A stretch of 64,000 bases of DNA from an uncultured Pseudomonadota bacterium (GTDB lineage Bacteria > Myxococcota_A > UBA796 > SXON01). The stretch lies in the NCBI GenBank assembly GCA_903844155.1, contig CAIMSU010000117.1:1-64000 (forward strand), read 5' to 3'. The position numbers and the translations under genes were made by a program. A model generated the notes under the pieces. It searched no databases and was not told the origin of the DNA. It saw only the letters and a list, made by a program, of their open reading frames with translations. This document shows positions 38,061-55,427 of this stretch, piece by piece. Numbering within the stretch: the stretch's first letter is position 1; each line of letters opens with the position of its first letter.

Positions 38061-41000
38061 CTACTTCGCCTGCGCCGCGATGCGCGTGGCGATCACCGGG
38101 TACGTCCCGCCCGGCAGCGCGTGAGCTTCAACGCCGCAGAGCTCCGCCACCACCCGTCCCGTCCCGTCCATCAGCGCGACGTCCGTGAGCGTGTTGTGCG
38201 CGCCCGTGCGACGCGCGGAGAGCACCGCCGAAAGCGCACCCCCGCGAGGCGGCGCAAAGGTGCGGAAGCTGCCGATGCCGGTCGGAAGCGCCGCGCGCTT
38301 CGTCATCAATTGCGTGAACAGCACGACGAGCTGCAAGCCACCGTCCAGCGCCGCCACGTCCGTCGACCAGCCCTCACCGGGCCAGTTCACCGCGTCGACC
38401 ACGCCGGTCAGCGTCGCCTCCATGCCGCCCGCCGACATGCCGCTGATCTGGCGGATCACGTGAAAGTCGGGGCCGTGAAAGAGCATCCGCTCATAGACGT
38501 CCTTGACGCTGTGCGGGAAGCGCTCATGCGCGAGGCGATCCGGCGCGCCCGGCTGGGTCGCAACGGCCTGCACGGAGACCATCGCCCGGTAATGGAGCCC
38601 CTTCGGCGACCGCAATTCCATGTCCCAGCGGTCCGGACCCGCCTCGGTGGCGACGACTTCAAAGTGATCGCCGCCGTTGTCGAAGTGCTCCAGGACGATG
38701 CCCTTGAGCACTTTTACGTCCTCGACCGTCACCGCCATGCCCGGCCGAAGCTCGCCCGCGCGCTGCACGAACCACTCCAGCGCCATCACGACCGGCAGCA
38801 CAGGCCGATCATCGACGGTGTGGTCCCGCAGGTAGCCGTGCGAGCCGGATGCGACCGCGCGCTTGACCGTTGACCGGCGAGGCGGAGGCGCCGACAGCGG
38901 CCCCGGGGCTCCACCGACCACGATCTCCACGGCGTCGCTGAAGCCGGTCAGCTCACCGACGAAGATCTCGGCCCCGCGCGCGAGCGGGATGCACGGGATG
39001 CCGAGGCTCTCAAACTGCTTTTTCAGCGCGGGGGTCACCATTCCGCCTTCCCACGGACCCCAGCCGATCGCCTTGACGACCGGGCGGATCGCGGCGCCGC
39101 TCCGGGCGCGATTCTCCGCGGCAGCCAGCTTGTTGAGCGCCTCGTTCGCCAGCGCGTAGTCACACTGTCCGGCGTTCCCGGCGCGACCGGCGACCGAGCT
39201 GAAGAAGCACAGGACCTTCAGGGGATCGCCCGCCGTCGCGCTGAGCAACGACCGTGCACCCTCGACCTTCGTGTCGTAGACACTGTCGAATTGCGCCGCC
39301 GACTTCTCCAGAAGCCGCTTGTCCGCGATCACGCCTGCCCCGTGAACGACACCCGTGATCGGCCCCCAGGCCGCCCGCACCGTCGCCAGCGCTGCCGTCA
39401 GCGCCTTCGCATCCTGCACGTCGACCGCGAGGTACCGCACCGAACCGCCCGCAGCCTCCATGCGCGCGATGTTCGCGCGCGCTTCACGCGCCGCAAGGAT
39501 CGCCGCAGCCTGCTTTCCGGCAGCCGCCGGCGCCAGGGTCTTGTCGAGCCCGAACAGCGCCCGCTTCACCCCGGCCTCGTCCGTCGCCGCTGCCACGGCC
39601 GCAGGCTCCTGCCCGTCGATCCGCGAGCGACCGAGCAGCACAACCCGGCAACGCGTCTTCACCACCAGCGCGATGATGCACGCCGCGGTCACCCCGCGCG
39701 CGCCGCCAGAGACCACCACGACGTCGCTCGCACCAAGCGCGACCGACGCGGATGCCGCGGCCTCCGGCGCCTGCCAGGACCCGGGCGTCACCCGCCCGCG
39801 GGCCGACACGCCGATCTCCACGGGCCCGCTGTGCAGCAGCTCCTGTACGATCCAGCCCGCCTGGATCTCCACCGACCCCGGTGCAAGGTCCACGTGACGG
39901 ACAAACGCTGACGGGTGCTCGATCGCCACCGTCTTCGTGAGCCCTGCGAGCCCACCAAGCAGCGCCGATCCCAGCGTCGTCCCATCCACGCCGAGGTCCC
40001 CGCCGAGGGAGGTCACCGTCACAAAGCCGCCACCGCTGTCGAGCCGCGCAGCCTTCGCAGCCGCGAACGCCGCCCGGCTCACCCGAGCGGCGAGGTCGAA
40101 GTCGGCGGGGCCGTCCACGCGCACCGCGCCCCCAAGGAACACGACGAGGGCCTTGCCATCGGGCTCACCGACCTGGGCGTCGACCCCCGCTTCAACCAAC
40201 TTCCGCGCCACCGCTTCACCAAGCGTCCCGGCTCCGACGACCACGGTCCGCCCAGGCTTCAGCGCTGCGCCCTCGGGAGCAGGAAGCAATTGCAGCTCAT
40301 ACCTGCCAATCGCATCGGCGACGGGAGCCGCCGCGACAGGCGTCGTCGCCGGCCCAACCGAACCACCAACCCCGTCGAGCGCCGCAACGACCTGGGCGAG
40401 CGTCTTCAGCGCGCCCATGGTCTCAGCGTCCACCTCGGGGAGCGACGGCTCACGCTCGCGCATCGCCGAGAGGATCTCCACGCGCTTGATGCTGTCGACC
40501 CCCAGGTCCGCCTCCAGATCCATCTCCAGGTTGAGCATCTCCGCGGGATACCCGGTCTTTTCGGCGACCACGCTTAGCAGCAGCGCGCGCAGATCAACAC
40601 CGGCTGCACCCGCCGACCCAGCGGCGGCAACGGGGCCGCTCGACCTGGCCGTCACGCTCCCGGCGACCGGGGTCGGCGCGACCGCGGGGGCGTGCGCCCC
40701 AAGCGAAGCCACCACCTGCCCGAGTGTCTTGAGCGCGCCCATCGTCTCGGCGTCCACTTCCGGCAAGGACGGCTCGCGCTCGCGCATCGCCGAGAGGATC
40801 TCCACGCGCTTGATGCTGTCGACCCCCAGATCCGCCTCCAGGTCCATCCCGAGGTTCAGCATCTCGGCGGGATACCCCGTCTTTTCCGCGACCACGGCGA
40901 GCAGCAGCGCGGTCAGATCGACGCCTGCCGCGGGAGGCGCGACCGTCGAAGCGCCAGTCGGCGCCGCCGACGGGGCCGCGGCCGAGGGCACGGCCCCAAG

Positions 41001-44000
41001 GGCACCGACGACCTGGCCGAGGGTCTTCAGCGCGCCCATCGTCTCGGCATCGACCTCCGGCAAGGACGGCTCGCACTCGCGCATGGCGGAGAGGATCTCG
41101 ACCCGCTTGATGCTGTCCACGCCCAGATCGGCCTCAAGGTCCATCGAGAGGTTCAGCATCTCCACGGGGTAGCCGGTCTTTTCGGAGACGACCCGCAGGA
41201 GCAGGGCGTTCAGATCGGTCCCAGGACGCGCCGCGACAACGGGTGGCGCTGTTACCGGTGCCGACGGCGTCGACTCGACCGAGCCGAGCGCGGCGACCAC
41301 CTGGCCAAGCGTCTTCAGGGCGCCCATCGTCTCGGCGTCGACCTCCGGCAGCGTCGGCTCGCGCTCGCGCATGGCCGAGAGGATCTCGACGCGCTTGATG
41401 CTGTCGACCCCGAGATCGGCCTCCAGGTCCATGCTGAGATTGAGCATCTCCACGGGGTACCCGGTCTTTTCGGAGACAACCGCGAGCAGGAGCGCGTTCA
41501 GGTCACGGGCGATCGACGGCACGGCGGGCTGCGGCGCAGGGACGGCGCGCGCGGCGGGCGTGGGCTCCGGCCGGGCGACGAGGGCCGGTGCTGTGTGGGA
41601 GGGCGCGGGCACCACTGCGCGAGGGCTCGCAACGGGCGCCGCGTCCGGCCAGGGAGCCGGAGCTGCGACGATTGGCCGCTGTACGAGGGCAGGCCTGTCC
41701 ACCACGCCGGAAGGCGCGCCAGGTGCCTGGGAACCGGCGGGCATCTGGGTAGGACTGGCGAACGGCGCGGCGAAGGACGGTGACCGACCCTCCGCCGGCA
41801 ACCGCGCACCGGACGCCAGCGCCACGACCGCGCGGGACGTCTCCTCATGCGCACGGAGGAACGCCATGTGGGCGTCCGTCAGCGCGCGCTGGAACCCCTC
41901 ATGCACCGTGGCTGCCTGCTTCTGGCTGTCGAGAAACGCGGTAACCCAGGAGAGATCAGCAGTTCGGGACATCGGACTCACGGGAGGGATGGGCGGGGAC
42001 ATGCTCGGCGAGGGATCCGGGCGACCCGGAGCGGCGGGGCTATTCGATTGAGCGCCCGTGGTAAACCGCGGCGGCGCGACGACGACGACGGGCGCGACCG
42101 TTACGGCCGCGACGGCGGTCGACCCCACGACCGGAACGGGGGCCAGCAGCGCTCGGCCCGACGGACCCGGGGTCAACGCACCTCCGCTGTCTCCGGCCGA
42201 ACCAGGCCCGCCGGAGCTGCTCGTCGGCTGCTTCGGAGGGTTGGGCGGCACCGGCAACATCGTGTCACTCGGGTAGGGCTTGCCATAATTGGACCCGTTG
42301 ATTGTCACGGCCATCTTCGGGGCAGCCCGGAGCGTGCGCAGCTCGCGCTCGGCCCAGAGGGGGGCGAACTGCACCGGGAGGCCAAGCGAAGCAGCGTGCC
42401 CGAGCGTCGCCAGCAGCGACAGGCGCGCATCGGTGCCGCGAGCGTCCGTCGCAAACGCGACATGGCCTCGGCCGCGCAGGCAACGGCCGACGAGGCCGGT
42501 GAGCACGGTTGACGGTCCGACCTCGATGAACGTCCGAACTCCGGCGTTGTACATGGCCTCGACCTGCTCGACGAAGCGCACGGGGCTGCGGAGGTGTTCG
42601 CCAAGCGCGGCGGCAAGCGGCGCCTCCCCGTACACAGCACCGGTGGCGTTGCTGTAGACCGGGAAGTTCGCAGGGCTGAACGCGATTTCCTTGAGCCACT
42701 CGGCGTAGGCCTCAGCCGCAGGCGCCACCACGGGCGAATGAAACGCCGTCGCCACGGAGAGTCGAACCGCCTTGAATCCGGCGGAGTCCAGGTGCTTCAC
42801 GGCGGCGTCCAGGGCACCGGTCGGCCCCGCGATCACGGTTTGTTCTGGGCTGTTGTAGTTGGCGATGACCACGCCCTCAATGCCCCCCTTCGCGAGACTT
42901 CGGAGCTCCTCCGCCACATCTGCCGGCTTGGCGACGACCGCGGCCATGGCCCCGGGGACCTTCGCGGCGAGCGCCATGAGCTCACCCCGCTTGCGACTGG
43001 CCCGCACAAAGTCGGTGTAGGACAACGCACCCGCGGCGTAGAGCGCCGTCAGTTCCCCGAAGCTGTGCCCAGCGGAGACGTCCGGCCGCAAGCCGTGTTC
43101 GCCGAGCACCCGGAGCATCGCCACGCTCGCGACCCCGATCGCAGGCTGCGCCCACTGCGTCCGGACGAGCTTCGCCTCGGTCTCGGTGCGTGCGGCGTCC
43201 GAGTACGTCGGTCGAGGGAACACGGTGAACGACAGCCGATCTGCCTCATCAAAGCAGGCGTCGGCCTCATCCCAGGCTCCTCGCGCCGCCGCCACGTCCA
43301 TGGCGATGCCCTTCCCCATCTCCAGGTACTGGCTCCCCTGCCCGGGAAACAGGAACGCGACGCGCCCCGCCTCGACCCCGGGCTGGAACCAGACGCCGCC
43401 GCGCGCGATCGGCTTTCCGGCGCGAAGCCCCTCCACGGCCTTCGCCAGCTTCGCTTCGAGGTCCCAGCCGGCCTCCGTCGCGACCACCATGACGCTGACC
43501 CGCACAGTACGATCCTGCTGCGATGCTGCATCGAAGCCCTGCTGCGCGCTGCGCGCCAGCTCGGCCACCGTGCGGTCAGCGAGGGAGAGATCCGACGACA
43601 GCCCCTTCGCGATGGCGAGCACCCGAGCGAGCTCGGCCTCCAAAGCGGCGGTGGTCGCGCCGAAAAATGGCAGGATCTCCGCCGCCCAGCGGTCCATGCG
43701 GGCAGGATGGTGCGCGGGCCCGAGGTACTCCTCCAGCGTGATGTGGAAGTTCGTCCCGCCGAACCCGAAGCTCGACACCGATGCCCGGCGCGCGTGCCCG
43801 CGACCGGTGATCCACGGCCGCGCCTCAGTCGCCAAGTAGAAGGGGCTCTTTTCCCAGTCCACCAGGCCGTTCGGGTTCTTGACCTTGATGGTCGGCGGGA
43901 TGATCTTGTGATGAAGCGCCAGCGCCACCTTCATCAGCCCGGCCGCGCCCGCAGCGGCCTTCGTGTGGCCCAACTGGCTCTTGATCGAGCCGAGCGCGCA

Positions 44001-45107
44001 CCAGCCGGCATCCCCGCGCGTCCCCTGAAAAATAAGGTTCAACCCCTTGAGCTCGGCGGCGTCGCCGGCCTTGGTGCCGGTGCCGTGGCCCTCGACGAGA
44101 TCGACACTGGCGGGCGAGTACTCCGCCTGCTCGTAGCAGCGTCCCAGCGCCTTGGCCTGCCCCTCGCTCACCGGCGCGTACACGCTCTTCGAGCGCCCGT
44201 CCGAGCTGGAGCCGAGGCCCCGGATCACGGCGTAGATCGGGTCGCCGTCGCGCTCGGCGTCCTCCAACCGCCGGAGAGCCAGCATTCCCAGCCCTTCGCC
44301 CAGCAGCGTGCCGTCGGCGTCGTCCGAGAACGGCCGACAATCCCCGGTCGGGGAGAGCGCCGGCGTCTTGGAGAAGCACATGTGCATGAAGATGTCGTTG
44401 AGCGTGTCGCAGCCGCCGGTGATCGCCATGTCCGAGTGTCCAAGCTGCAGCTCGTAGACGGCCGTCTGCACGGCGGTAAGCGCGCTCGCACAGGCGGCGT
44501 CCGTGATGCAATTGGTGCCGCCGGTGTCGAGCCGGTTGGCGATGCGCCCGGCGACCACGTTCCCGAGCAACCCCGGGAAGCTCGCTTCCTGCCAGCCCAC
44601 GTAATGGCTGGCGATGCGATCACAGGCCTCCTGCACCGTCTTCTCGTCGAGCCCCGACAGGCGCAGCGATCGCTCCCACACGGGACGTTGGAGGCGGGAG
44701 ACCAGCGAGGACAACAGCTCCTGCGCGCCAGTGACACCCAGGATCACCGAGGTCCGCGACAGGTCCAGCTTGCGCATCCCCATCCTCGACACGTCGTCCA
44801 GGACCATCTGCGCGACGATGAGCGCGATGAGCTGGCTTGTGTCCGTGGCCGGCAGCGTGCTCGGCGGGATGCCGAAACCCATCGCGTCGAACGGGACGTC
44901 AGGCAAGAAGGCGCCCCGACGCGCGTAGGTCTTGTCCGGTGCCTTGGGGTTCGGGTCGTAGTAGTCCTCGATCAACCAGTGGGTTTTCGGGACGTCGGTG
45001 ATCAGATCGCGCTTCTGCAGGATGTTCCGCCAGAACGAGGGGACGTCCAGGGCTCCGGGCATGATGCATCCAAGACCGACGACGGCGATGGGCGAAAAGG
45101 ACGGCAT
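38061..45107 (-). CDS. PfaA-like iterative type I polyketide/PUFA synthase: KS-AT-ACPx4-KR-DH (2348 aa)
   Basis: MPSFSPIAVVGLGCIMPGALDVPSFW; KS DAACASAL, EGHGTGT; AT GHSFGELTALYAAG; four LGVDSIKRVEIL ACP sites; KR VVVSGGARGVTAACI; hotdog HGYLRDHTVDDRPVLPVVMALEW. Start placed at ATG 45107, not 50189. Confidence 0.92.
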   Translation of the reverse strand: MPSFSPIAVVGLGCIMPGALDVPSFWRNILQKRDLITDVPKTHWLIEDYYDPNPKAPDKTYARRGAFLPDVPFDAMGFGIPPSTLPATDTSQLIALIVAQMVLDDVSRMGMRKLDLSRTSVILGVTGAQELLSSLVSRLQRPVWERSLRLSGLDEKTVQEACDRIASHYVGWQEASFPGLLGNVVAGRIANRLDTGGTNCITDAACASALTAVQTAVYELQLGHSDMAITGGCDTLNDIFMHMCFSKTPALSPTGDCRPFSDDADGTLLGEGLGMLALRRLEDAERDGDPIYAVIRGLGSSSDGRSKSVYAPVSEGQAKALGRCYEQAEYSPASVDLVEGHGTGTKAGDAAELKGLNLIFQGTRGDAGWCALGSIKSQLGHTKAAAGAAGLMKVALALHHKIIPPTIKVKNPNGLVDWEKSPFYLATEARPWITGRGHARRASVSSFGFGGTNFHITLEEYLGPAHHPARMDRWAAEILPFFGATTAALEAELARVLAIAKGLSSDLSLADRTVAELARSAQQGFDAASQQDRTVRVSVMVVATEAGWDLEAKLAKAVEGLRAGKPIARGGVWFQPGVEAGRVAFLFPGQGSQYLEMGKGIAMDVAAARGAWDEADACFDEADRLSFTVFPRPTYSDAARTETEAKLVRTQWAQPAIGVASVAMLRVLGEHGLRPDVSAGHSFGELTALYAAGALSYTDFVRASRKRGELMALAAKVPGAMAAVVAKPADVAEELRSLAKGGIEGVVIANYNSPEQTVIAGPTGALDAAVKHLDSAGFKAVRLSVATAFHSPVVAPAAEAYAEWLKEIAFSPANFPVYSNATGAVYGEAPLAAALGEHLRSPVRFVEQVEAMYNAGVRTFIEVGPSTVLTGLVGRCLRGRGHVAFATDARGTDARLSLLATLGHAASLGLPVQFAPLWAERELRTLRAAPKMAVTINGSNYGKPYPSDTMLPVPPNPPKQPTSSSGGPGSAGDSGGALTPGPSGRALLAPVPVVGSTAVAAVTVAPVVVVAPPRFTTGAQSNSPAAPGRPDPSPSMSPPIPPVSPMSRTADLSWVTAFLDSQKQAATVHEGFQRALTDAHMAFLRAHEETSRAVVALASGARLPAEGRSPSFAAPFASPTQMPAGSQAPGAPSGVVDRPALVQRPIVAAPAPWPDAAPVASPRAVVPAPSHTAPALVARPEPTPAARAVPAPQPAVPSIARDLNALLLAVVSEKTGYPVEMLNLSMDLEADLGVDSIKRVEILSAMREREPTLPEVDAETMGALKTLGQVVAALGSVESTPSAPVTAPPVVAARPGTDLNALLLRVVSEKTGYPVEMLNLSMDLEADLGVDSIKRVEILSAMRECEPSLPEVDAETMGALKTLGQVVGALGAVPSAAAPSAAPTGASTVAPPAAGVDLTALLLAVVAEKTGYPAEMLNLGMDLEADLGVDSIKRVEILSAMREREPSLPEVDAETMGALKTLGQVVASLGAHAPAVAPTPVAGSVTARSSGPVAAAGSAGAAGVDLRALLLSVVAEKTGYPAEMLNLEMDLEADLGVDSIKRVEILSAMREREPSLPEVDAETMGALKTLAQVVAALDGVGGSVGPATTPVAAAPVADAIGRYELQLLPAPEGAALKPGRTVVVGAGTLGEAVARKLVEAGVDAQVGEPDGKALVVFLGGAVRVDGPADFDLAARVSRAAFAAAKAARLDSGGGFVTVTSLGGDLGVDGTTLGSALLGGLAGLTKTVAIEHPSAFVRHVDLAPGSVEIQAGWIVQELLHSGPVEIGVSARGRVTPGSWQAPEAAASASVALGASDVVVVSGGARGVTAACIIALVVKTRCRVVLLGRSRIDGQEPAAVAAATDEAGVKRALFGLDKTLAPAAAGKQAAAILAAREARANIARMEAAGGSVRYLAVDVQDAKALTAALATVRAAWGPITGVVHGAGVIADKRLLEKSAAQFDSVYDTKVEGARSLLSATAGDPLKVLCFFSSVAGRAGNAGQCDYALANEALNKLAAAENRARSGAAIRPVVKAIGWGPWEGGMVTPALKKQFESLGIPCIPLARGAEIFVGELTGFSDAVEIVVGGAPGPLSAPPPRRSTVKRAVASGSHGYLRDHTVDDRPVLPVVMALEWFVQRAGELRPGMAVTVEDVKVLKGIVLEHFDNGGDHFEVVATEAGPDRWDMELRSPKGLHYRAMVSVQAVATQPGAPDRLAHERFPHSVKDVYERMLFHGPDFHVIRQISGMSAGGMEATLTGVVDAVNWPGEGWSTDVAALDGGLQLVVLFTQLMTKRAALPTGIGSFRTFAPPRGGALSAVLSARRTGAHNTLTDVALMDGTGRVVAELCGVEAHALPGGTYPVIATRIAAQAK
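40375..41515 (-). repeat. Four tandem near-identical ACP-encoding repeats
   Basis: Repeated LLxVVxEKTGYPxEMLNLxMDLEADLGVDSIKRVEILSAMREREPSLPEVDAETMGALKTLGQVV; period about 300-325 nt. Confidence 0.9.
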
Positions 45108-45269
45108 GATGGCGCTCCGGCGGGTCGCTTCGAGGTTGCGGGGCCTCGTTCTACTCTCGGCGTCGCCCTCGGGTGTCACGGTGCCGTCACGGTCGACGCT
45201 ACTCCCTTGGCTCGCGACCCTTGACATCGGGCAGGTTGCGCCGCACGTTGCTGAGATGCGAGTGCAGGC

Positions 45270-47402
45270 TTGATCGACGAGGTGATTCACAAGGTGCAGG
45301 TCTACGCTCCGGGCGCGGACGTTGGCCTCATCCTCGACGCGTACACGTACGCCGCGTTCTGCCACCGCGACCAGAAGCGCAAGAGCGGTGACGACTACTT
45401 CATCCATCCCCTCGCCGTCGCCGAGATCCTCGCGGACCTGCGGATGGACGTCGAGACCATCGCCGTCGGCCTCCTCCACGACACCATCGAGGACACCCTC
45501 GCGAGCCGCGAGCAGATCGAGCAGCGCTACGGGAAAACGGTCGCGGAGATGGTCGACGGCGTGACGAAGCTCTCCAAGCTCACCTACCGGGGCAAGGCCG
45601 AGGAGCAGGCCGAGAATTTTCGAAAACTGGTCCTGGCGTTTGGGAAGGACCTGCGCGTGATCATCGTCAAGATCGCCGACCGGCTGCACAACATGCGGAC
45701 GCTCGATCATCAGCCGCCCGACAAGCAGCGTTCGATCTCCAAGGAGACCCTGGACATCTACGCGCCGCTGGTGAGCCGCCTCGGCTTTGATGCCATCAAG
45801 AGTGAGCTTGAGGATCTTTGCTTTCGCTACCTCTATCCTGAAGAGTTTGCCGAGCTCGTCACCCAGCTGGAAACGACGGCCATCGAGCGCGGCGAGTATG
45901 TCGCGGAGACGGCGGCGATCCTGCATGAAGCGCTGGCGTCCAGGGGCATTCACGCGGACATCACCGGGAGGGTGAAGCACCTCTGGAGCATCCGGAACAA
46001 GGTGAAGAAGTCGGGCAAGAGCGTGTCCGATCTCTACGACCTGCTCGCGTTCCGCGTGCTCGTGCCCGACCGTGAGACCTGCTACGTCACCCTCGGCTTC
46101 ATCCACCTGCTGTACATGCCGGTAGAAGGCAGGTTCAAGGACTACATCGCCGTCCCGAAGTCCAACGGGTACCAGTCGCTCCACACCACGGTCGTGGGAC
46201 CGGACGGCCGACCGATGGAGGTCCAGATCCGCACGCCGGAGATGCACCGCATCGCCGACGACGGCATCGCCGCTCACTGGCGCTACAAGAACGGGCGACT
46301 CGCGGTCAGCAACGCCGAGCTCGAACGCGTCGCCCGGCTGCGGGGCTTCATCCAGCTCGCCCGCGACGTTGAGGACCCGGCCGACTTCATGGAGGCCGCC
46401 CGCAGCGATCTCGCAGCGAACATCCATGTGTTCACGCCCAACAAGGACGTGCTCTTGCTGCCGGAAGGAGCGACCGCGCTCGACTTCGCTTACCACGTCC
46501 ACACCGAGGTGGGGCACCACGCCTGCGGTGCCAAGGTCAACGGCCGGATGGTGGCGCTTCGCCACCCGATCAAGACCGGCGACACCGTCGAGATCCTGAC
46601 CAAGCCCGACGCGAACCCGACGCGAGACTGGCTCTCGTGGGCGACCAGCCACCGGGCGCTCGGGAAGATGCGCAAGCGCCTGCGGGAGCTCCTTGAGGAC
46701 CAGGGCCTCGCCCGCGGGCGGGACTTCCTCGACGGCGCGCTCCGCAAGATCGGCAGCTCGCTCAAGCGCGCAGAGGAGGACAAAACCGCGCCGGAGAAGC
46801 TGCTCGCGCGAGGGTACAAGGATCTCGACGCCCTCGCCGCCGAGCTCGTCGACGGGAAGGTGTCGCCCGGCGAGGCGGCACGGATCCTCGTCCCTGAGAC
46901 TGCGCCGACGAGCTCGCTCACGCCGGGGGTCATGGCGTCGATCCTGCAGCGCGTGCGACGGCAGGTCGACAGCCCGATCCTCGTCAATGGCGAGACCGAC
47001 ATCCTCGTCGACTACGCCCGGTGCTGCCGACCGATGAAGGGCGAGCCCATCATCGGGTACATCACCCGCGGTCGCGGAATGTCGATCCACAAGCAGGACT
47101 GTCCCGAAGTGCGCGGGCTGGACCCCGACAGGCAGGTTGCTGTAGCGTGGGACGACCGGGTCTCGACGCTGCAGCAGGGGCTGATCGTCGTTGAGAGCGA
47201 GGACCGGCCAGGCTTGCTCGCGGAGATCACCGGGCTCTGCGCGACCTACAAGATCAACCTCTGGAAAGCCGACGTTCGCGCGACGCACGATCGCAAGGCC
47301 CGGTGCGAGCTCGGCGTCGTTGTACAGGACGTGACGCAGCTCACGCGCCTCATGGGAAAGCTCCGAAACGTGAAGGGTGTGCTCAGCGTGATGCGCGCCT
47401 GA
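45270..47402 (+). CDS. Bifunctional (p)ppGpp synthetase/hydrolase, Rel/SpoT family
   Basis: HD motif AVGLLHDTIEDT, synthetase SNGYQSLHTTVVGPDG, TGS and ACT domains; TTG start. Confidence 0.96.
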   Translation: MIDEVIHKVQVYAPGADVGLILDAYTYAAFCHRDQKRKSGDDYFIHPLAVAEILADLRMDVETIAVGLLHDTIEDTLASREQIEQRYGKTVAEMVDGVTKLSKLTYRGKAEEQAENFRKLVLAFGKDLRVIIVKIADRLHNMRTLDHQPPDKQRSISKETLDIYAPLVSRLGFDAIKSELEDLCFRYLYPEEFAELVTQLETTAIERGEYVAETAAILHEALASRGIHADITGRVKHLWSIRNKVKKSGKSVSDLYDLLAFRVLVPDRETCYVTLGFIHLLYMPVEGRFKDYIAVPKSNGYQSLHTTVVGPDGRPMEVQIRTPEMHRIADDGIAAHWRYKNGRLAVSNAELERVARLRGFIQLARDVEDPADFMEAARSDLAANIHVFTPNKDVLLLPEGATALDFAYHVHTEVGHHACGAKVNGRMVALRHPIKTGDTVEILTKPDANPTRDWLSWATSHRALGKMRKRLRELLEDQGLARGRDFLDGALRKIGSSLKRAEEDKTAPEKLLARGYKDLDALAAELVDGKVSPGEAARILVPETAPTSSLTPGVMASILQRVRRQVDSPILVNGETDILVDYARCCRPMKGEPIIGYITRGRGMSIHKQDCPEVRGLDPDRQVAVAWDDRVSTLQQGLIVVESEDRPGLLAEITGLCATYKINLWKADVRATHDRKARCELGVVVQDVTQLTRLMGKLRNVKGVLSVMRA

Positions 47403-47445
47403 CCCAGGCGGGGCTCGCTTCAGCGCGTATGCGCGGGCCGGGACC

Positions 47446-48144
47446 GTGACGTCTACCCGAGAGCGCGCTACTTCCGACGGCGTGCCACCCTCCACACTTA
47501 GCCGCGCCGTCCGAGGCGCTCTCCAGCTCGTCAGCCAACGTGTGTCGAAGGACGGGCTTTTTGAGCAGCCCGGCGAGCGGGTCAGGTCGCCCCCGCTCCC
47601 TGCCTCCGCACCCCCTGCGGCCAGCCCCCCAGGGACGGCTCGACCGGAAGTCGCTCCAGGATCGCGGCCGGGGAGGCCGACGGACGGCTGCGTCCCGGTC
47701 GGCCTCGGGGAGCTGACTGCCGTCCTCACCCCAGGAAGCCGGGCGCTGGTCGTGAACCACTGGGCGACGTGGTGCGATCCGTGTGTGGATGAGCTGCCCC
47801 GCCTGGTCCGGGCCGCCGCGGGCCTCGGTTCAACCGCGGAATTCATCGGGGTGAGCTGGGATCTCTTCGACCACCCCGGCGTCGCGTCAAAGGTGGCGGC
47901 GAAGGTTGCCGCCTTCGCAAGCTCCAGCGGCGTCGGCTTCGGCTCGGTGCTGTTCACGGGGACGCCCGCCGAACTGTTCGCCGCCTGCAAGCTCGACGTC
48001 GAGCAGGTCCCGCAAACACTCGTGCTCGCCCCCGACGGCACCGTGATCTGGCACAAGAAGGGCATGCTCACCGACGACGACGTGTTCCCGTTGATCGCAG
48101 CCGCCAAGGCTGCGAACGCCCGATCCGGAACGGGCTCCGCGTGA
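47446..48144 (+). CDS. TlpA-like thioredoxin-fold protein
   Basis: VVNHWATWCDPCVDELPRLVRAA; VPQTLVLAPDGTVIWHKKG. Confidence 0.75.
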   Translation: MTSTRERATSDGVPPSTLSRAVRGALQLVSQRVSKDGLFEQPGERVRSPPLPASAPPAASPPGTARPEVAPGSRPGRPTDGCVPVGLGELTAVLTPGSRALVVNHWATWCDPCVDELPRLVRAAAGLGSTAEFIGVSWDLFDHPGVASKVAAKVAAFASSSGVGFGSVLFTGTPAELFAACKLDVEQVPQTLVLAPDGTVIWHKKGMLTDDDVFPLIAAAKAANARSGTGSA

Positions 48145-49661
48145 TCGCGCTGCTCTGGCTCCTCGGCTGCGCTCCGAAAGCGCCGCCGCCGGCTCCAGAC
48201 GTCCCTCACGCCCTCACCATCCTCCACACCAACGACATCCACGCCCATTTCGAGCCCGCGCCCGCCGAATGGCTCGACGGCCACCCCGCGATCGGCGGCT
48301 TCGTTCGGTTGGAGCAGGAAGTTCGGGCGTTGCGTGCTGCCAGGGGGGCGCCCCAGACGCTCACCCTGGACGGCGGCGACCAGCTCACGGGCACGCCCAT
48401 CACCGAGATCAACGCCGACGGCAGCTTCGGTGGGGCGATGCACGGCTTTCTCGATGCCATCCACTACGACGCGTGGGTGGTCGGAAACCACGAGTTCGAC
48501 AAGGGGCTCGACAACCTCACACACTACGTCGAGAACCACCCCGTCCTGCCCCTGTCCTGCAACCTGCTCCGCCTGGGCAGCACGCTGCCGCTGCTCCCCC
48601 GCCAGGAACCTTCCCACGTGTTCGCCATTGCCGGCATGCGTGTGGGGGTGATCGGGGTCACCACCCAGGAGCTCGGCGGGCTGATGAAGGGGAGTGAATT
48701 TGGTCGGCTCACCCTGCTCCCCGAGATACCCGCAGTCCAGGCGGAGGTCGACCGACTCGACCCGGTCACCGATCTGATCGTGGTTCTCTCGCATATCGGC
48801 GTGGACAACGACAAGGCGCTGGCCTCCGCGGTGAAGGGCATCGACCTCATCGTCGGGGCACACTCGCACACCCGCCTGACAGCCGCGATCCAGGTCGGCG
48901 ACACGTACATCGTCCAAGCTGGCAGCTACAACCGCTCGCTTGGCGTGGTCGACCTCGTCGAGCAGGACGACCACATCACCTCGTTCCACTACGAGCTGCA
49001 CGATCTCCTGCCGGACACGGCGACGGTTCCCCCGGACCCGAAGCTCGAGGGGATGGTCGCCACGTACAAGGCAGAGATCGACCACGTCTACGGCGAGCAC
49101 GTGTCCGACGCTCCGGCGCTCCTCGGCCGCTCCTACAATCACGAGAGCCCGCTCGGCCGGTGGATCACGGATGGGATCCGCGACCGCACCGGGGTGGACA
49201 TCGCCCTGTACAACGCGGGCGGCCTCCGCGCCGACATCGACGCAGGCCCAGTCAGCCGCCTCACGCTGTTCCAGTGCTTTCCCTTCCAGAATCCTGTGAT
49301 GCGGTTCCAGCTCACCGGCGCCCAGATCGCGGGCATGGTGGCGCTGAACGTCACCGCGGAGACCGACGAAAAGAGTGGATTCCTCTCCACTTCGGGGCTC
49401 TCCTGGACCTGGCGCAAGTCGGGAGGGGTGCCGACGGTCGTCAGCGTGCTTGTGGACGGCCAACCGCTCGACCCCGCCAGGACCTACGCGATCGCGGCGA
49501 ACAGCTACGTGACCGAGCAATGGCAGAAGCACCTCGGCCCAGACGCGAAGCCACAGAACGTGGAGCCGCTGGGCTACACGGACTTGGACGTAGCGGTCGA
49601 CTACGCGCGCAAAAAGCCAGTCGTTGACCCAGGAAACGTGCGCGCCGTGCTCCTTCCGTAG
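48141..49661 (+). CDS. 5'-nucleotidase (UshA-like) lipoprotein
   Basis: GTG start; LTILHTNDIHAHFEP, GGDQLTGTP, GNHEFDKGLDNL, GAHSHTRL, YNAGGLRADI. Confidence 0.9.
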   Translation: MIALLWLLGCAPKAPPPAPDVPHALTILHTNDIHAHFEPAPAEWLDGHPAIGGFVRLEQEVRALRAARGAPQTLTLDGGDQLTGTPITEINADGSFGGAMHGFLDAIHYDAWVVGNHEFDKGLDNLTHYVENHPVLPLSCNLLRLGSTLPLLPRQEPSHVFAIAGMRVGVIGVTTQELGGLMKGSEFGRLTLLPEIPAVQAEVDRLDPVTDLIVVLSHIGVDNDKALASAVKGIDLIVGAHSHTRLTAAIQVGDTYIVQAGSYNRSLGVVDLVEQDDHITSFHYELHDLLPDTATVPPDPKLEGMVATYKAEIDHVYGEHVSDAPALLGRSYNHESPLGRWITDGIRDRTGVDIALYNAGGLRADIDAGPVSRLTLFQCFPFQNPVMRFQLTGAQIAGMVALNVTAETDEKSGFLSTSGLSWTWRKSGGVPTVVSVLVDGQPLDPARTYAIAANSYVTEQWQKHLGPDAKPQNVEPLGYTDLDVAVDYARKKPVVDPGNVRAVLLP

Positions 49662-49669
49662 GTACCGGC

Positions 49670-52600
49670 TCATCGAAAATCCCGGCTTGAGGCAGCGACC
49701 GGCGTCCCCAACGTCAGCGGCTTGAAGTTCCAGGCGATCACGTTGAGTACATCTCCCACCTCGTCCTGACCGCCCGAGCCCTCCGTGCGCTCCAGCCTGC
49801 CGTAGACCTCCACCAATTGTGCGCCGCGGATCAGGCTGCGCTGCCGCTCGTAGACCTTCGGCCAGACCACGATGTTTCCGCTTCCGGTCTCGTCCTCCAG
49901 GGTCATGAACACGACCCCTGAAGCCGTCGCCGGTCGTTGGCGATGCGAGACCAGCCCGGCGACGCGAACCACGGTCGCGTGCGGCACTTCGATCAGGCGC
50001 CCGAGACGGGTGAACCCCTGCTTGTCCAGCCGGTCGCGCAGCAGGCCAACTGGATGTTCCCGTAGGGAGAGGCCCGTACTCGCAAAATCCGCCAGCACCT
50101 CGTCGGTAGGCGCCGCACGCGGAAGCTCGCACGTCTCCGTCCGAGCGAGAGGCGCGAACAACCCCGGCCACAGACCCGCGACGGCCCACGAGGCCGCGCG
50201 CCGATCGGCGCCTGCGAGGAGCGTGCGAAGCGCGTCAGCCCTGGCCAGCAGCCCGAGGTCACCCGCCCCTAGCCCGGCGCGAAGCCGGAGATCCGCGAGC
50301 GACTCAAAGGGTCCGTCCCGGCGTGCCCGAACGATCCGCTCCGCAGTTTCCTCCTGGAATCCCCGGATCAACCGAAACCCCAGCCGGACCTCCGGCGCCT
50401 GACCAAACTCCCCCTCCATCGTGCAGTCCCACTGCGAGATCGCCACGTCCACCTCGCGCGCCGTGACACCGTGACGCTCAGCGTCCGCGATCAGGGACCG
50501 CGGCGCGTAGAACCCCATGGGCTGGCTGTTGATCAGCGCTGCCGTGAACGCCGCGGGGTAGTGGCAACGGAGCCAGCAGGAGACGTAGACCAGGTGCGCA
50601 AAGCTGGCGGCGTGGGACTCCGGAAACCCGTACTCGGCGAAGCCCTGGATCTGCTTGTAGATCTGCTCGGCGTACTCGGGGGTGATCCCGTTCTGGCGCA
50701 TGCCAGCCATGAGCCGTTCGCCGATCTCGTGCAGGCCACCGCGCTTGCGCCACGCTCCCATCGCGCGCCTGAGCTGATCGGCCTCCCCCGGTGTGAATCC
50801 GCCAACTGCGACCGCCATCGCCATCACCTGCTCCTGGAAGATCGGGACGCCCATCGTCCGCTCCAGGATCGGCCGGAGCCGCTCGTCCGCGTACGTGATC
50901 GGCTCCTCGCCGTTCCGGCGGCGCAGGTAGGGATGCACCATGCCACCCTGAATCGGGCCGGGCCTCACGATCGCGGTCTCCACGACGAGATCGTAGAAGT
51001 TCCGCGGACGCAGTCGCGGGAGCATCGACTGCTGGGCCCGACTCTCGATCTGGAACACCCCGATCGAGTCGGCGTGGCCGAGCATCGTGTAGACCGCGGG
51101 ATCCTCGGCGGGGATGTTGGTCAGATCGAGGACCCGGCCGTGCCAGGACTGGATCATGCGGAACGCCTTTCGGATCGCCGTCAGCATCCCGAGCGCCAGC
51201 ATGTCGACCTTCACAAAACCCAGGTCGTCCACGTCGTTCTTGTCCCACTGCAGCACGGTGCGGGCGTCCATGCGCGCGGGCTCGATGGGTGCTGTGTCGA
51301 TCAGCGGGTCGTCCGAGATCACGAACCCACCGACATGGATGGACGTGTGGCGCGGAAACCCCTGGATCTGCGTTGCCAACTGGATGAGGTGCTCCACGCT
51401 CGCGTCGCCCTGCTCGACCCCCGCCTCGCGCAGGCGGGACGCCCAGCCGCGCGGCTTCGGGTCCGGAGCGTCGGCATGATCGCGGGGACCCGGCTTGGAG
51501 CCGGCCACTCCAGGCTTCGGATCCCGGCGGCGGGGCTTGCCCTTCCCGCCCTCGGCGGACGGCGGGATTGTCGGCGTCTCCAGAGCGGTGTTCTGGACCG
51601 GGGCCGTCCCGACCTCGGCGGGTTCGCCAGCCGAAAGCACGTCGAAGTGCCCCATGGTCTTGGCGAGCTGGTCCACAGCGTCGGCGCCGAACCCCAGGGC
51701 CTTGCCCACGTCGCGCACCGCCATCTTGCCGCGCCACGCGATCACCTCGTTCACCATCGCCGCCCGATCGCGCCCGTACTTCGCGTAGACGTACTGGAGC
51801 ACTTCCTCACGCCGCTCGTGCTCAAAGTCGATGTCGATGTCCGGGGGTTCGCCGCGCTCCTCGGAGATGAAGCGTTCAAAAAGCAGCTTCTGACGGGATG
51901 GATCCACCGGCGTGACGCCCAGCACGTAGCAGACCGCCGAGTTGGCCGCGCTTCCCCGGCCCTGGCACAGGATGTCGCGCGTGCGCGCGAACCGCACGAC
52001 ATCATGGACGGTCAGGAAATACGACGCGAAGTTCAGCCGACCGATGATGTCGAGCTCGTAAGCGACTTGTTTGGAGACCTCCTCGGGGGCACGGCCCCGG
52101 TAGCGGAGGTGCATCCCGCGGCGCGTGAGCTCGGAGAGCCACTCCTGGGCCGAGTAGCCAGGGGGGACCACCTCGCGCGGGTACTGGTACTTCAGCTCAT
52201 CGAGCGAGAAGGTGCACCGCGACTGGATCTCGACCGTGCGCGCGATCATGTCGGGCCAACGCGCAAAGCGGGCGAGCATCCGGTCCGGTGCGAGGAGGGT
52301 CCGTTCGCTGTTCGGTTGCGCGCGACGGCCCAGATTCGGCAAGGTGAGTCCGAGGCGGATGCACGTCAGCACGTCCTGCAACCGCGAGCGCTCGCGGATG
52401 TGCATCAGCACATCGTTGGTCGCCACGCACGGGATCCCGGAGGCCTGCAGCGCCTCGATCGCCGTCTCCTCATCCGGGGCGAGGCGCCGGCTCACCGCCT
52501 GGTAGAGGCGATCCCCGCAGGCGTCCTGCAACCGACCCGTCGACCCGCTCGGCCAACGCCCACGGAGCAGGACAATCAAGCCCTCGCTGCCGGCGAGGAG

Positions 52601-54679
52601 CCGATCGAGAGGCAGCTCCGCCCAGGCTTTGTCCGGACGGTACCCGAACGGTTCGGGGTCGGCCTCACCCGCGAGTGGCACGTCGACGGTCCGGGGGGCC
52701 GAGAAGACCGCGGTGTCATGCCCCTCGAACCGGCTCGCGGTGAGCAGGCGACAGAGGCTAGCCCACCCCTTCCGGTTCTGGACAAGCACCGCCACGGAAC
52801 GCCGGCTGTCCCCATCCCGCACGGTCAGGAGCGCCCCATGCGTGAGCGGTAGCCCGGCCTTTTTCGCGGTGCGATGGGCCTGGACGGCACCGTAGAGGCC
52901 ATCCCGGTCAGTCAGCGCCATGCCCGAAAGGCCCAGCTCCCGGGCCCGGTCGACCAGCTCCGCCGGGAACGATGCCCCTTCGCAGAACGAGAAGTTGGAC
53001 CGGCAGATCAGCTCCGCATAGGCGACGGGGCGAGCGGCGACGGGTCGGGCGGATCGGGCACCGGTGCCGCTGGTCTCCCTGCCCGCGTCAAACCACCCGT
53101 GCAGCAGCCACCGGTCCGAGGGGTCGTCCCTGTATACCCACGCGATGCGCCCGTCTTCCAGCGTGCAAGCCCAGTAGTCCCGCGAAATCCCCACCGGCAT
53201 CCACCACTCGCCGGTCAGCCGCTCGGGCCCCTCTGTGCTCCTCACCGTCGCCCATTCGCGGGTTCCGCTCGGGGGACCGGCTGCCGCCTCCAGACCCCCA
53301 AGCGCCCGCGGACGTCCCGACGGTGCAGCGATCACGCGTACAGCGAGCGGCTCCGGCAGCAACAGCGTGGGTCTCGGCCGCCGTGTCGGTAGCGCCTCAC
53401 CCCCAGGCTCGTGCGCCAGCGCCGGGTCACGCTTTGGCACCGTCGCCGGCTTCGGTGGTGCGTCGCCCTCCGGAATCGCCGTCCACGCCGCCTCGGGACG
53501 GTGTCGATCCGCGAGGACCGGATGGACCACCGCCTCTTTCCCCAGCGCGTCCTGCAGCCTCGCCACCAGGTCCGCCAACGGCTCTTCCCGATCCGCGCGA
53601 TCGAACAGCCCTCCCTGCCCCGGCCGCCACACGCACGTCTCCGCCACCTCGACCCCGATCGCGACCACCGGTGACTCCAGGTGCACGCGCTCCAGCCGCA
53701 GCCGCAGCAGCTTGTAGACGCGGTCGGCGCTCCGCCCCGGCGTCCCGAGCCGCACGGGAACCACGAGCGCCCCCTGCTCCAGCCGCAGCCGCACCCGCAG
53801 GCGCGTGACCGCCTCTCCCCGCTCCTCGAGGTTCGCCGCCACGTCCCGCAAGAGGCCGTGCAGGACGAACACCAGCGCGTCGAGGCTCTCCACGGGATCG
53901 GGGAACTCGCACTCGTGCTGCCGCTCCGGCGCTGGCGCTGGCAACACAGCGACCGTGTCCACGCTCGCGCGCTCACCCCGCGCCAGCGCATACGCCGGCA
54001 GGATCTGACGACCAAAGCGCCCCGTCAGCGACGACGCCGGGAGCGCCCCCAACGCAGCGAGCGTCCGAATCCCCGCCGCGGACAGCGTGGCGATTGTGTC
54101 CTCCTCAAGGATCGGCAGGTGCTCTTCGATGCCGTGCAGCCGGGGATCCCGCCGCACAAGTGCCGTCAGCGGCACCTCCGCCACGGCCGCTCGCTGCGCT
54201 TTCTGGCCAAGCGTCAGGTCGACGTGGGGACTGGAATCGCCGCCCGCCGGTCCATGCCGCGCCAGAAGCAACGCGACCTCCCGCAACGGCGCCCAGACCA
54301 GCCGCACCGCATGTCCCAGTCCAACCAGCACCTGCCGCACGGGCCCAAGCAGCTCGGCTTTTCCGTGCAGAAGCACGGCATCCGGCGGAGCGACCCGCAC
54401 GTCCGGAGAAAACCGCCCGAGGCACGCCACCAGCCCCGCCCGATCCCGCACCTCGCCCTCCACATCCAACCGCTCGACCAGCACGTGCGGGCAATGGCTG
54501 CGCGCCTCCGCGAGGGTCATCCCCACCCGCACGTTCTCCGCGTATGCCAGCGGCGTGACCGTCAGCACCCGCTCGCCGCCTTGTGCCACAGCGACCAGCA
54601 CCGCAGCCTGCTTCTCGCTGTCGATCCCGCACCGATCGAGCCGGAAACGCGGGAGGAACGCTGCCAGAAAGCCGGTCAT
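49670..54679 (-). CDS. imuB-dnaE2: Fused ImuB-DnaE2 (ImuC): non-catalytic Y-family polymerase-like protein joined to error-prone C-family DNA polymerase, one ORF
   Basis: N-terminal ImuB from MTGFLAAFLPRFRLDR to ...SRDYWACTLEDGRIAWVYRDDPSDRWLLHGWF; DnaE2 from YAELICRSNFSFCEGASFPAEL with PDIDIDFEHERREEV, QGRGSAANSAVCYVLG, ends ASSRDFR. No stop and no start codon in the linker. Confidence 0.92.
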   Translation of the reverse strand: MTGFLAAFLPRFRLDRCGIDSEKQAAVLVAVAQGGERVLTVTPLAYAENVRVGMTLAEARSHCPHVLVERLDVEGEVRDRAGLVACLGRFSPDVRVAPPDAVLLHGKAELLGPVRQVLVGLGHAVRLVWAPLREVALLLARHGPAGGDSSPHVDLTLGQKAQRAAVAEVPLTALVRRDPRLHGIEEHLPILEEDTIATLSAAGIRTLAALGALPASSLTGRFGRQILPAYALARGERASVDTVAVLPAPAPERQHECEFPDPVESLDALVFVLHGLLRDVAANLEERGEAVTRLRVRLRLEQGALVVPVRLGTPGRSADRVYKLLRLRLERVHLESPVVAIGVEVAETCVWRPGQGGLFDRADREEPLADLVARLQDALGKEAVVHPVLADRHRPEAAWTAIPEGDAPPKPATVPKRDPALAHEPGGEALPTRRPRPTLLLPEPLAVRVIAAPSGRPRALGGLEAAAGPPSGTREWATVRSTEGPERLTGEWWMPVGISRDYWACTLEDGRIAWVYRDDPSDRWLLHGWFDAGRETSGTGARSARPVAARPVAYAELICRSNFSFCEGASFPAELVDRARELGLSGMALTDRDGLYGAVQAHRTAKKAGLPLTHGALLTVRDGDSRRSVAVLVQNRKGWASLCRLLTASRFEGHDTAVFSAPRTVDVPLAGEADPEPFGYRPDKAWAELPLDRLLAGSEGLIVLLRGRWPSGSTGRLQDACGDRLYQAVSRRLAPDEETAIEALQASGIPCVATNDVLMHIRERSRLQDVLTCIRLGLTLPNLGRRAQPNSERTLLAPDRMLARFARWPDMIARTVEIQSRCTFSLDELKYQYPREVVPPGYSAQEWLSELTRRGMHLRYRGRAPEEVSKQVAYELDIIGRLNFASYFLTVHDVVRFARTRDILCQGRGSAANSAVCYVLGVTPVDPSRQKLLFERFISEERGEPPDIDIDFEHERREEVLQYVYAKYGRDRAAMVNEVIAWRGKMAVRDVGKALGFGADAVDQLAKTMGHFDVLSAGEPAEVGTAPVQNTALETPTIPPSAEGGKGKPRRRDPKPGVAGSKPGPRDHADAPDPKPRGWASRLREAGVEQGDASVEHLIQLATQIQGFPRHTSIHVGGFVISDDPLIDTAPIEPARMDARTVLQWDKNDVDDLGFVKVDMLALGMLTAIRKAFRMIQSWHGRVLDLTNIPAEDPAVYTMLGHADSIGVFQIESRAQQSMLPRLRPRNFYDLVVETAIVRPGPIQGGMVHPYLRRRNGEEPITYADERLRPILERTMGVPIFQEQVMAMAVAVGGFTPGEADQLRRAMGAWRKRGGLHEIGERLMAGMRQNGITPEYAEQIYKQIQGFAEYGFPESHAASFAHLVYVSCWLRCHYPAAFTAALINSQPMGFYAPRSLIADAERHGVTAREVDVAISQWDCTMEGEFGQAPEVRLGFRLIRGFQEETAERIVRARRDGPFESLADLRLRAGLGAGDLGLLARADALRTLLAGADRRAASWAVAGLWPGLFAPLARTETCELPRAAPTDEVLADFASTGLSLREHPVGLLRDRLDKQGFTRLGRLIEVPHATVVRVAGLVSHRQRPATASGVVFMTLEDETGSGNIVVWPKVYERQRSLIRGAQLVEVYGRLERTEGSGGQDEVGDVLNVIAWNFKPLTLGTPVAASSRDFR

Positions 54680-55350
54680 CGGGCAGGCTGCCCGACCGTT
54701 GGTCCCACCACCTGGCGCTCCCCGAGCGCACGCCCATCCCGCGCACGCGTGCATCGGACCCGCAAGGCGCCTCCCTCCCATCCGCTCGTCACCAGCCGCA
54801 ACACTGCAGGAAGATCCTCATCCATCCCCTCCCCGACCACCACGACCGTGGTCCTGCCGGCCTCGGCCGCCTTCGCGAGACGAACCCCCGCCCGCCCGAG
54901 TGGCCCGAGGTCGAGCAGGACGACGAGCGGCACCGCACCTGCGCGCGCCACCTGCTCCGCAGCCCATGCCGCCTGCGCCGGTGCCGGCCGAAGCAGCAAC
55001 ACCGCCTCGCACGTCCGCTCATCAAGCGCGGGCGGATGGAAACCCTGCCCCGGGTCGACGATGACGACACGCTGCCCCTGCCGCGCGAGACGGCCGAGCA
55101 AGGGGAGGATCAACGCCAGCCTACCCGTACCCGGCAGGCCAGCCACCTCGCTCACCGCGCCGATCGGCCAGCCTCCCAGCCAGGTGTCCATCGCCGGCAC
55201 CTGCATGGGGAGATAGCCAGGAGATACCAGTGGAAGCCGACCAAGCTGCGCACGAAGGGCCTGGAGGGTGAGCGGCTGCTTTGGAACAGCAACGGGGACG
55301 GCGACCTGCTCCGGATCCGGGTCATAAAGGTCGTAGGCCAGGGAGGACAT
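54676..55350 (-). CDS. imuA: ImuA (RecA/SulA-like mutagenesis accessory protein)
   Basis: MDTWLGGWPIGAVSEVAGLPGTGRLALILPLLGRL...VVIVDPGQGFHPPAL; stop overlaps imuB start (ATGA). Confidence 0.8.
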   Translation of the reverse strand: MSSLAYDLYDPDPEQVAVPVAVPKQPLTLQALRAQLGRLPLVSPGYLPMQVPAMDTWLGGWPIGAVSEVAGLPGTGRLALILPLLGRLARQGQRVVIVDPGQGFHPPALDERTCEAVLLLRPAPAQAAWAAEQVARAGAVPLVVLLDLGPLGRAGVRLAKAAEAGRTTVVVVGEGMDEDLPAVLRLVTSGWEGGALRVRCTRARDGRALGERQVVGPTVGQPAR

Positions 55351-55413
55351 GCAGGCAGACTACGCTACAGGTGCCCAACGTGCAAGGCCAAAAAATGTCC
55401 GATCACAAGTACA

Positions 55414-55427
55414 GTTGACAGGTCAAC
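55414..55427. promoter_or_regulatory. Perfect palindrome GTTGAC-AG-GTCAAC upstream of imuA; candidate damage-response operator overlapping a TTGACC -35-like element on the minus strand
   Basis: Direct reading; lies between the pncA stop and the imuA start. Confidence 0.45.

Follow-up and report, generated by a model that had tools for sequence, protein, structure and literature searches.

Does this locus encode ImuB and DnaE2 as one polypeptide, and if so, how did the fusion arise and what would it do? The known ImuA-ImuB-DnaE2 mutasome (M. tuberculosis, Caulobacter, Pseudomonas, M. xanthus) consists of three separate polypeptides, whereas in the window (the whole stretch of 64,000 nucleotides that was analysed) ImuB and DnaE2 form one. 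The same three components are present with imuA upstream, and in both cases a DnaE2 polymerase is combined with an ImuB predicted to be a catalytically dead Y-family protein that has a clamp motif and an ImuB-C domain. Because ImuB and DnaE2 occupy one open frame, the window system is a variant of the mutasome.

The fused imuB-dnaE2 gene was read from an ATG at 54679 to a stop at 49670-49672 as 1669 uninterrupted codons (Table 1). The ImuB half ends with ...RWLLHGWF at residue 530 and the DnaE2 half opens with YAELICRSNFSF at residue 554. An earlier note on this DNA had described a single frame without a stop, an Ala/Arg/Pro-rich linker of about 25 residues, and GTC valine codons with no ATG or GTG restart near the junction. 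The single frame was borne out by the reading-frame analysis and by the domain matches, and the linker measured 23 residues. Both of its valine codons are GTC. In-frame GTG/ATG codons lie at 53194 and 53200, in the ImuB-C region, and after 53194 no in-frame ATG, GTG or TTG was found until 52921, which is inside PHP. Every sequence claim of that note held on re-reading of the window, and it is confirmed that ImuB and DnaE2 are encoded there as one chain.

Table 1. Features of the fused gene and its surroundings (positions in the window).
Feature	Position	Strand	Description	Basis
Fused imuB-dnaE2 gene	49670..54679	(-)	1669 aa, 182.8 kDa predicted	Single open frame, domain matches at both ends
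ImuB moiety, residues 1-530	53090..54679	(-)	Y-family-like fold, predicted catalytically dead	Pfam IMS, IMS_C; DinB alignment
QGGLF, candidate beta-clamp-binding motif, residues 355-359	53603..53617	(-)		Family alignment; place by analogy with M. tuberculosis QLPLWG
ImuB-C domain (predicted), residues 446-530	53090..53344	(-)	Beta-rich in AlphaFold model, high pLDDT	Model; conserved alignment block
Linker DAGRETSGTGARSARPVAARPVA	53021..53089	(-)	23 aa, Ala/Arg/Pro/Gly-rich	No start codon; low pLDDT in model
DnaE2 moiety, residues 554-1669	49673..53020	(-)	PHP, palm/thumb, fingers, HhH, OB	NCBIfam and Pfam
PDIDIDFEHER, palm motif	51812..51844	(-)	Two catalytic Asp	Asp residues invariant in family
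KVDMLALG, palm motif	51188..51211	(-)	Third catalytic Asp	Asp invariant where sequenced
imuA	54676..55350	(-)	224 aa, degenerate Walker A (GLPGTGRL)	NCBIfam NF033429
GGACATTTTTTGGC element upstream of imuA	55387..55400	(-)		Common to several family genera; cf. L103-L105, L107, L110

The two halves were assigned by profile searches and by alignment within the family to which the window belongs (23 genomes). Pfam IMS matched the first half; IMS_C scored below its cut-off in the protein scan and above it in the genome search. On alignment with E. coli DinB, the catalytic residues D8 and E104 of the latter were not conserved in the ImuB of the family, and the ImuB half is predicted to be a Y-family-like fold that has lost its catalytic residues. 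QGGLF is a candidate for its beta-clamp-binding motif, by analogy with QLPLWG, the clamp motif of M. tuberculosis ImuB (PMC10421592), and QxGLF or QxxL[LF] was present in most family members in the alignment. In mycobacteria such a motif is essential both for binding of ImuB to the clamp and for mutagenesis (PMC10421592). A conserved alignment block and the AlphaFold model suggest that the half closes with the ImuB-C beta-barrel; no solved ImuB structure was found by sequence searches. In one fused frame (L111, genome G010) the ImuB part had no recognisable N-terminus, possibly owing to a frameshift or decay.

The second half scored 1315 bits as an error-prone DNA polymerase (NCBIfam NF004225, cut-off 939 bits) and gave Pfam matches to PHP, DNA_pol3_alpha, finger, HHH_6 and OB. 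The profile score, the PHP-palm-finger-HhH-OB order and the three palm Asp residues identify it as a complete DnaE2. The polymerase region also contains a Pro/Lys-rich low-complexity insert (~51434-51622, residues ~1020-1082) that is variable across the family.

Upstream, imuA ends in a stop codon that overlaps the start codon of the fused gene within the sequence ATGA (54676-54679). The imuA product matched NF033429 with E=4.9e-19 and 69 bits, under the 150-bit cut-off. ImuA was present in all 22 family genomes that contain the fusion, whole or in part, not always adjacent; G015, which lacks a DnaE2 match, also lacks ImuA. ImuA is encoded with ImuB and DnaE2, as in the mutasome. Its Walker A motif is degenerate in the window family (GxxGxGR[LF]), whereas the ImuA3 type of M. 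xanthus keeps both Walker motifs. SOS-box-like palindromes such as CTGAACGTACGTTCAG were found upstream of imuA or the fused gene at seven loci (L107, L110, L111, L113, L115, L118, L119), and no clear CTGAACGTACGTTCAG-like SOS box was seen in the window or in its genus. The GGACATTTTTTGGC-like element, which lies upstream of the SOS-like box, is possibly a second damage-response site. A palindrome with 6-nt arms, GTTGACCTGTCAAC, was noted at 55414-55427, in the gap that separates imuA from the upstream pncA-like gene. On the same minus strand, the region of ORF 38061-50189 was seen by eye to encode a polyunsaturated-fatty-acid-synthase-like protein with several acyl-carrier repeats.

The junction was sequenced in 21 of the 23 family genomes, representing seven genera; the count leaves out G015, in which DnaE2 has no match, and G021, whose contig ends ahead of the junction. 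In all 21 the two genes are fused in one frame. The linkers span 20-87 codons and contain no stop in 1010 codons in total, while shuffling the linkers gave an expected stop in 7.5 of the 21 on average and left all of them open in 0 of 2000 trials; the open linkers therefore exceed chance. Conserved blocks flank the linker, namely ...RWxLHGW at the end of ImuB-C and YAELxCRSNFSFxEGAS at the start of DnaE2. Pairwise nucleotide lengths of linker gaps, which were not always multiples of three, were set aside as the low-complexity alignment is unreliable. Values of dN/dS were 0.08-0.26 over ImuB and 0.07-0.13 over DnaE2, showing that purifying selection acts on both halves. Three family loci (L022, L023, L024) also occur in GTDB records that carry names and differ in their project prefix; the record of L022 is titled Bifidobacterium breve, and this locus, 76% identical to that of the window and matching G004, is probably from a mislabelled bin. 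A missed stop or a frameshift introduced by assembly or base calling could also merge two genes, and the sequences come from draft assemblies (metagenome bins where named), but the recurrence of the same frame in 21 separate genomes, some from different projects, together with clean stops in relatives of other families, makes such an artefact extremely improbable. These results support a fusion that is conserved and old in the window family, which plausibly belongs to Myxococcota, an assignment in line with genomes of up to 13.4 Mb among the members of its phylum.

Relatives with separate genes indicate how the fusion arose. In families f2, f4, f5 and f6 and in a relative from f8, imuB and dnaE2 are two neighbouring genes; in most cases their stop and start overlap as TGATG or a near form of it, and dnaE2 is in another frame. 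This overlap (HGWFD-TGATG) directly follows the residues that lead into the linker of the fused proteins. Separate genes were likewise found in every other family examined in the order and the phylum; in family f3 of the same order (L128-L131) DnaE2 has no imuB within a few kb and the cassette is split. The earlier note had held that two-gene relatives at this exact junction would speak against the fusion; they do exist outside the family, where they give the ancestral state, and none was found within it. In the DnaE2 tree the fused members form one clade (SH-aLRT 100) nested in separate-gene relatives, which shows a single origin of the fusion in the window family. Since dnaE2 is out of frame in the relatives, the simplest route to the fusion goes beyond the loss of a stop and involves a frame change and a linker. 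We propose that an operon with a TGATG overlap would have been converted into the fusion once, in the family ancestor, by a frame change and an inserted linker.

The wider distribution was surveyed with a profile spanning ImuB-C, the linker and PHP, for which one stop-free match was scored as fused, a match with a stop as in frame but separate, and two matches as out of frame. Among the matches listed for 386 genomes of the window's phylum, in which spanning matches rank first, only the 21 family members gave stop-free spanning matches. None was found among the matches listed for Pseudomonadota, the phylum of Janthinobacterium (399 genomes, 140 with a DnaE2 match). Of 300 genomes from the phylum of a Phycisphaerales MAG, eight are fused (L161-L168), as ORF checks confirmed. 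This second clade has linkers of a near-constant 27-32 aa, and imuA was detected upstream in seven of the eight. It probably belongs to Planctomycetota; 16S loci from five of its genomes have one mismatch to the PLA46 target, in line with that phylum. Its separate-gene sister (L051) has a TGATG overlap. Constraining both fused groups to one clade cost 320 log-likelihood units (p-AU 1e-52), and one shared origin was rejected; the ImuB-DnaE2 fusion arose at least twice, independently.

Several other candidates were dismissed. Outside the family, long DnaE2 frames that resembled fusions (G068, G238, G114, G197, G107, G318, G236 and others) were overlapping shadow frames, with imuB in another frame. 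In Microvirga H11, where one tblastn match covered the query from end to end, a stop codon parts the two genes. At L026, L030, L047, L064 and L092 and in about 20 Pseudomonadota genomes, imuB and dnaE2 are separate but share a frame, and in many of these pairs one stop codon lies between them; read-through of such a stop would yield the fusion.

With ancestral genes that overlap out of frame and many unrelated pairs that are in frame with one stop between, fusion is mutationally easy, and the joining of two tightly coupled genes might be real but functionally neutral, merely tolerated in a complex that works as usual. The lack of linker conservation in the window family fits this possibility, which we consider rather unlikely overall: only two clades are fused among the matches listed for ~1,000 genomes of three phyla, and the fusion, once formed, was retained by every member that retained the gene.

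An AlphaFold model of residues 446-836 (mean pLDDT 86.7, pTM 0.69) shows ImuB-C as rich in beta structure and the PHP domain as folded, with a linker of low confidence between them; a 1195-residue model (pLDDT 58.7) was too poor to be used for docking of ImuB and DnaE2 within one chain. In a published study (PMC12926913), AlphaFold models of the separate proteins have their most extensive ImuB-DnaE2 interface between ImuB-C and PHP, so that the fusion would join what would bind anyway. The reading we prefer, with a probability of roughly 0.8, is that this gene combines the two larger subunits of the mutasome in a single chain, with ImuA completing the complex. The dead ImuB half would use QxGLF to bind the sliding clamp and its own C-terminal region to bind ImuA, and the DnaE2 half would carry out error-prone synthesis. 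The flexible linker would connect the ImuB-C barrel to PHP, the surfaces predicted to bind when separate, and ImuA from the same operon would complete the assembly. Being covalently joined by the linker, clamp adaptor and polymerase would always arrive together 1:1; the 1:1 stoichiometry and cis recruitment put forward in the earlier note would result from this architecture provided that the chain remains uncut. From the sequence we infer expression as an intact chain, complex formation and mutagenic function.

The linker could be open to protease cutting, being Ala/Pro/Arg-rich, of low pLDDT and variable in length like cleavable linkers, and the in-frame codons in the ImuB-C region might provide an extra start for DnaE2; in either case the working proteins would be the usual two. 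No protease motif is evident in the linker, however, the family has no internal start codon near the junction in common, and in some members this region contains none at all. Ordinary re-initiation has been lost, since the dnaE2 ATG that overlaps the stop in the relatives is gone in the fused genes. Cleavage or internal initiation is thus improbable. For the single-chain mutasome, it is a tentative suggestion, and one we hold to be doubtful, that tethering changes function, for example by faster exchange with the replicative polymerase, by higher processivity or by protection from an uneven supply of subunits, and that this accounts for two independent fusions.

M. xanthus has dnaE2 (MXAN_3982) and imuB (MXAN_3990) as distinct genes under different regulation (PMC12288472); such separate regulation is ruled out in the window because the two are fused. 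Bacterial polymerase surveys describe split ImuB and other variants (PMC3919608, PMC6511836, PMC12926913). Mutasome modules have been split and rejoined in iPolY, standalone ImuB-C and DnaE2X (PMC12926913, PMC6511836), and iPolY-type systems, with ImuB split in two, represent the opposite direction to the window fusion (PMC12926913, PMC6511836). DnaE1-DnaQ fusions and PolC are C-family polymerases fused to or carrying a partner function, as here, but that partner is a proofreading exonuclease (PMC12926913) and the one in the window a clamp adaptor. An ImuB-DnaE2 fusion is not mentioned in the passages on fusions of the 2013, 2019 and 2026 surveys (PMC3919608, PMC6511836, PMC12926913), and literature text searches, with many subscription papers outside their coverage, returned no report of one.

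The occurrence of a natural fusion in two clades argues for a 1:1 ImuB:DnaE2 unit and supports the modelled contact between ImuB-C and PHP. The fusion would also make the complex available with both subunits in a single chain, a form suitable for biochemistry and cryo-EM.
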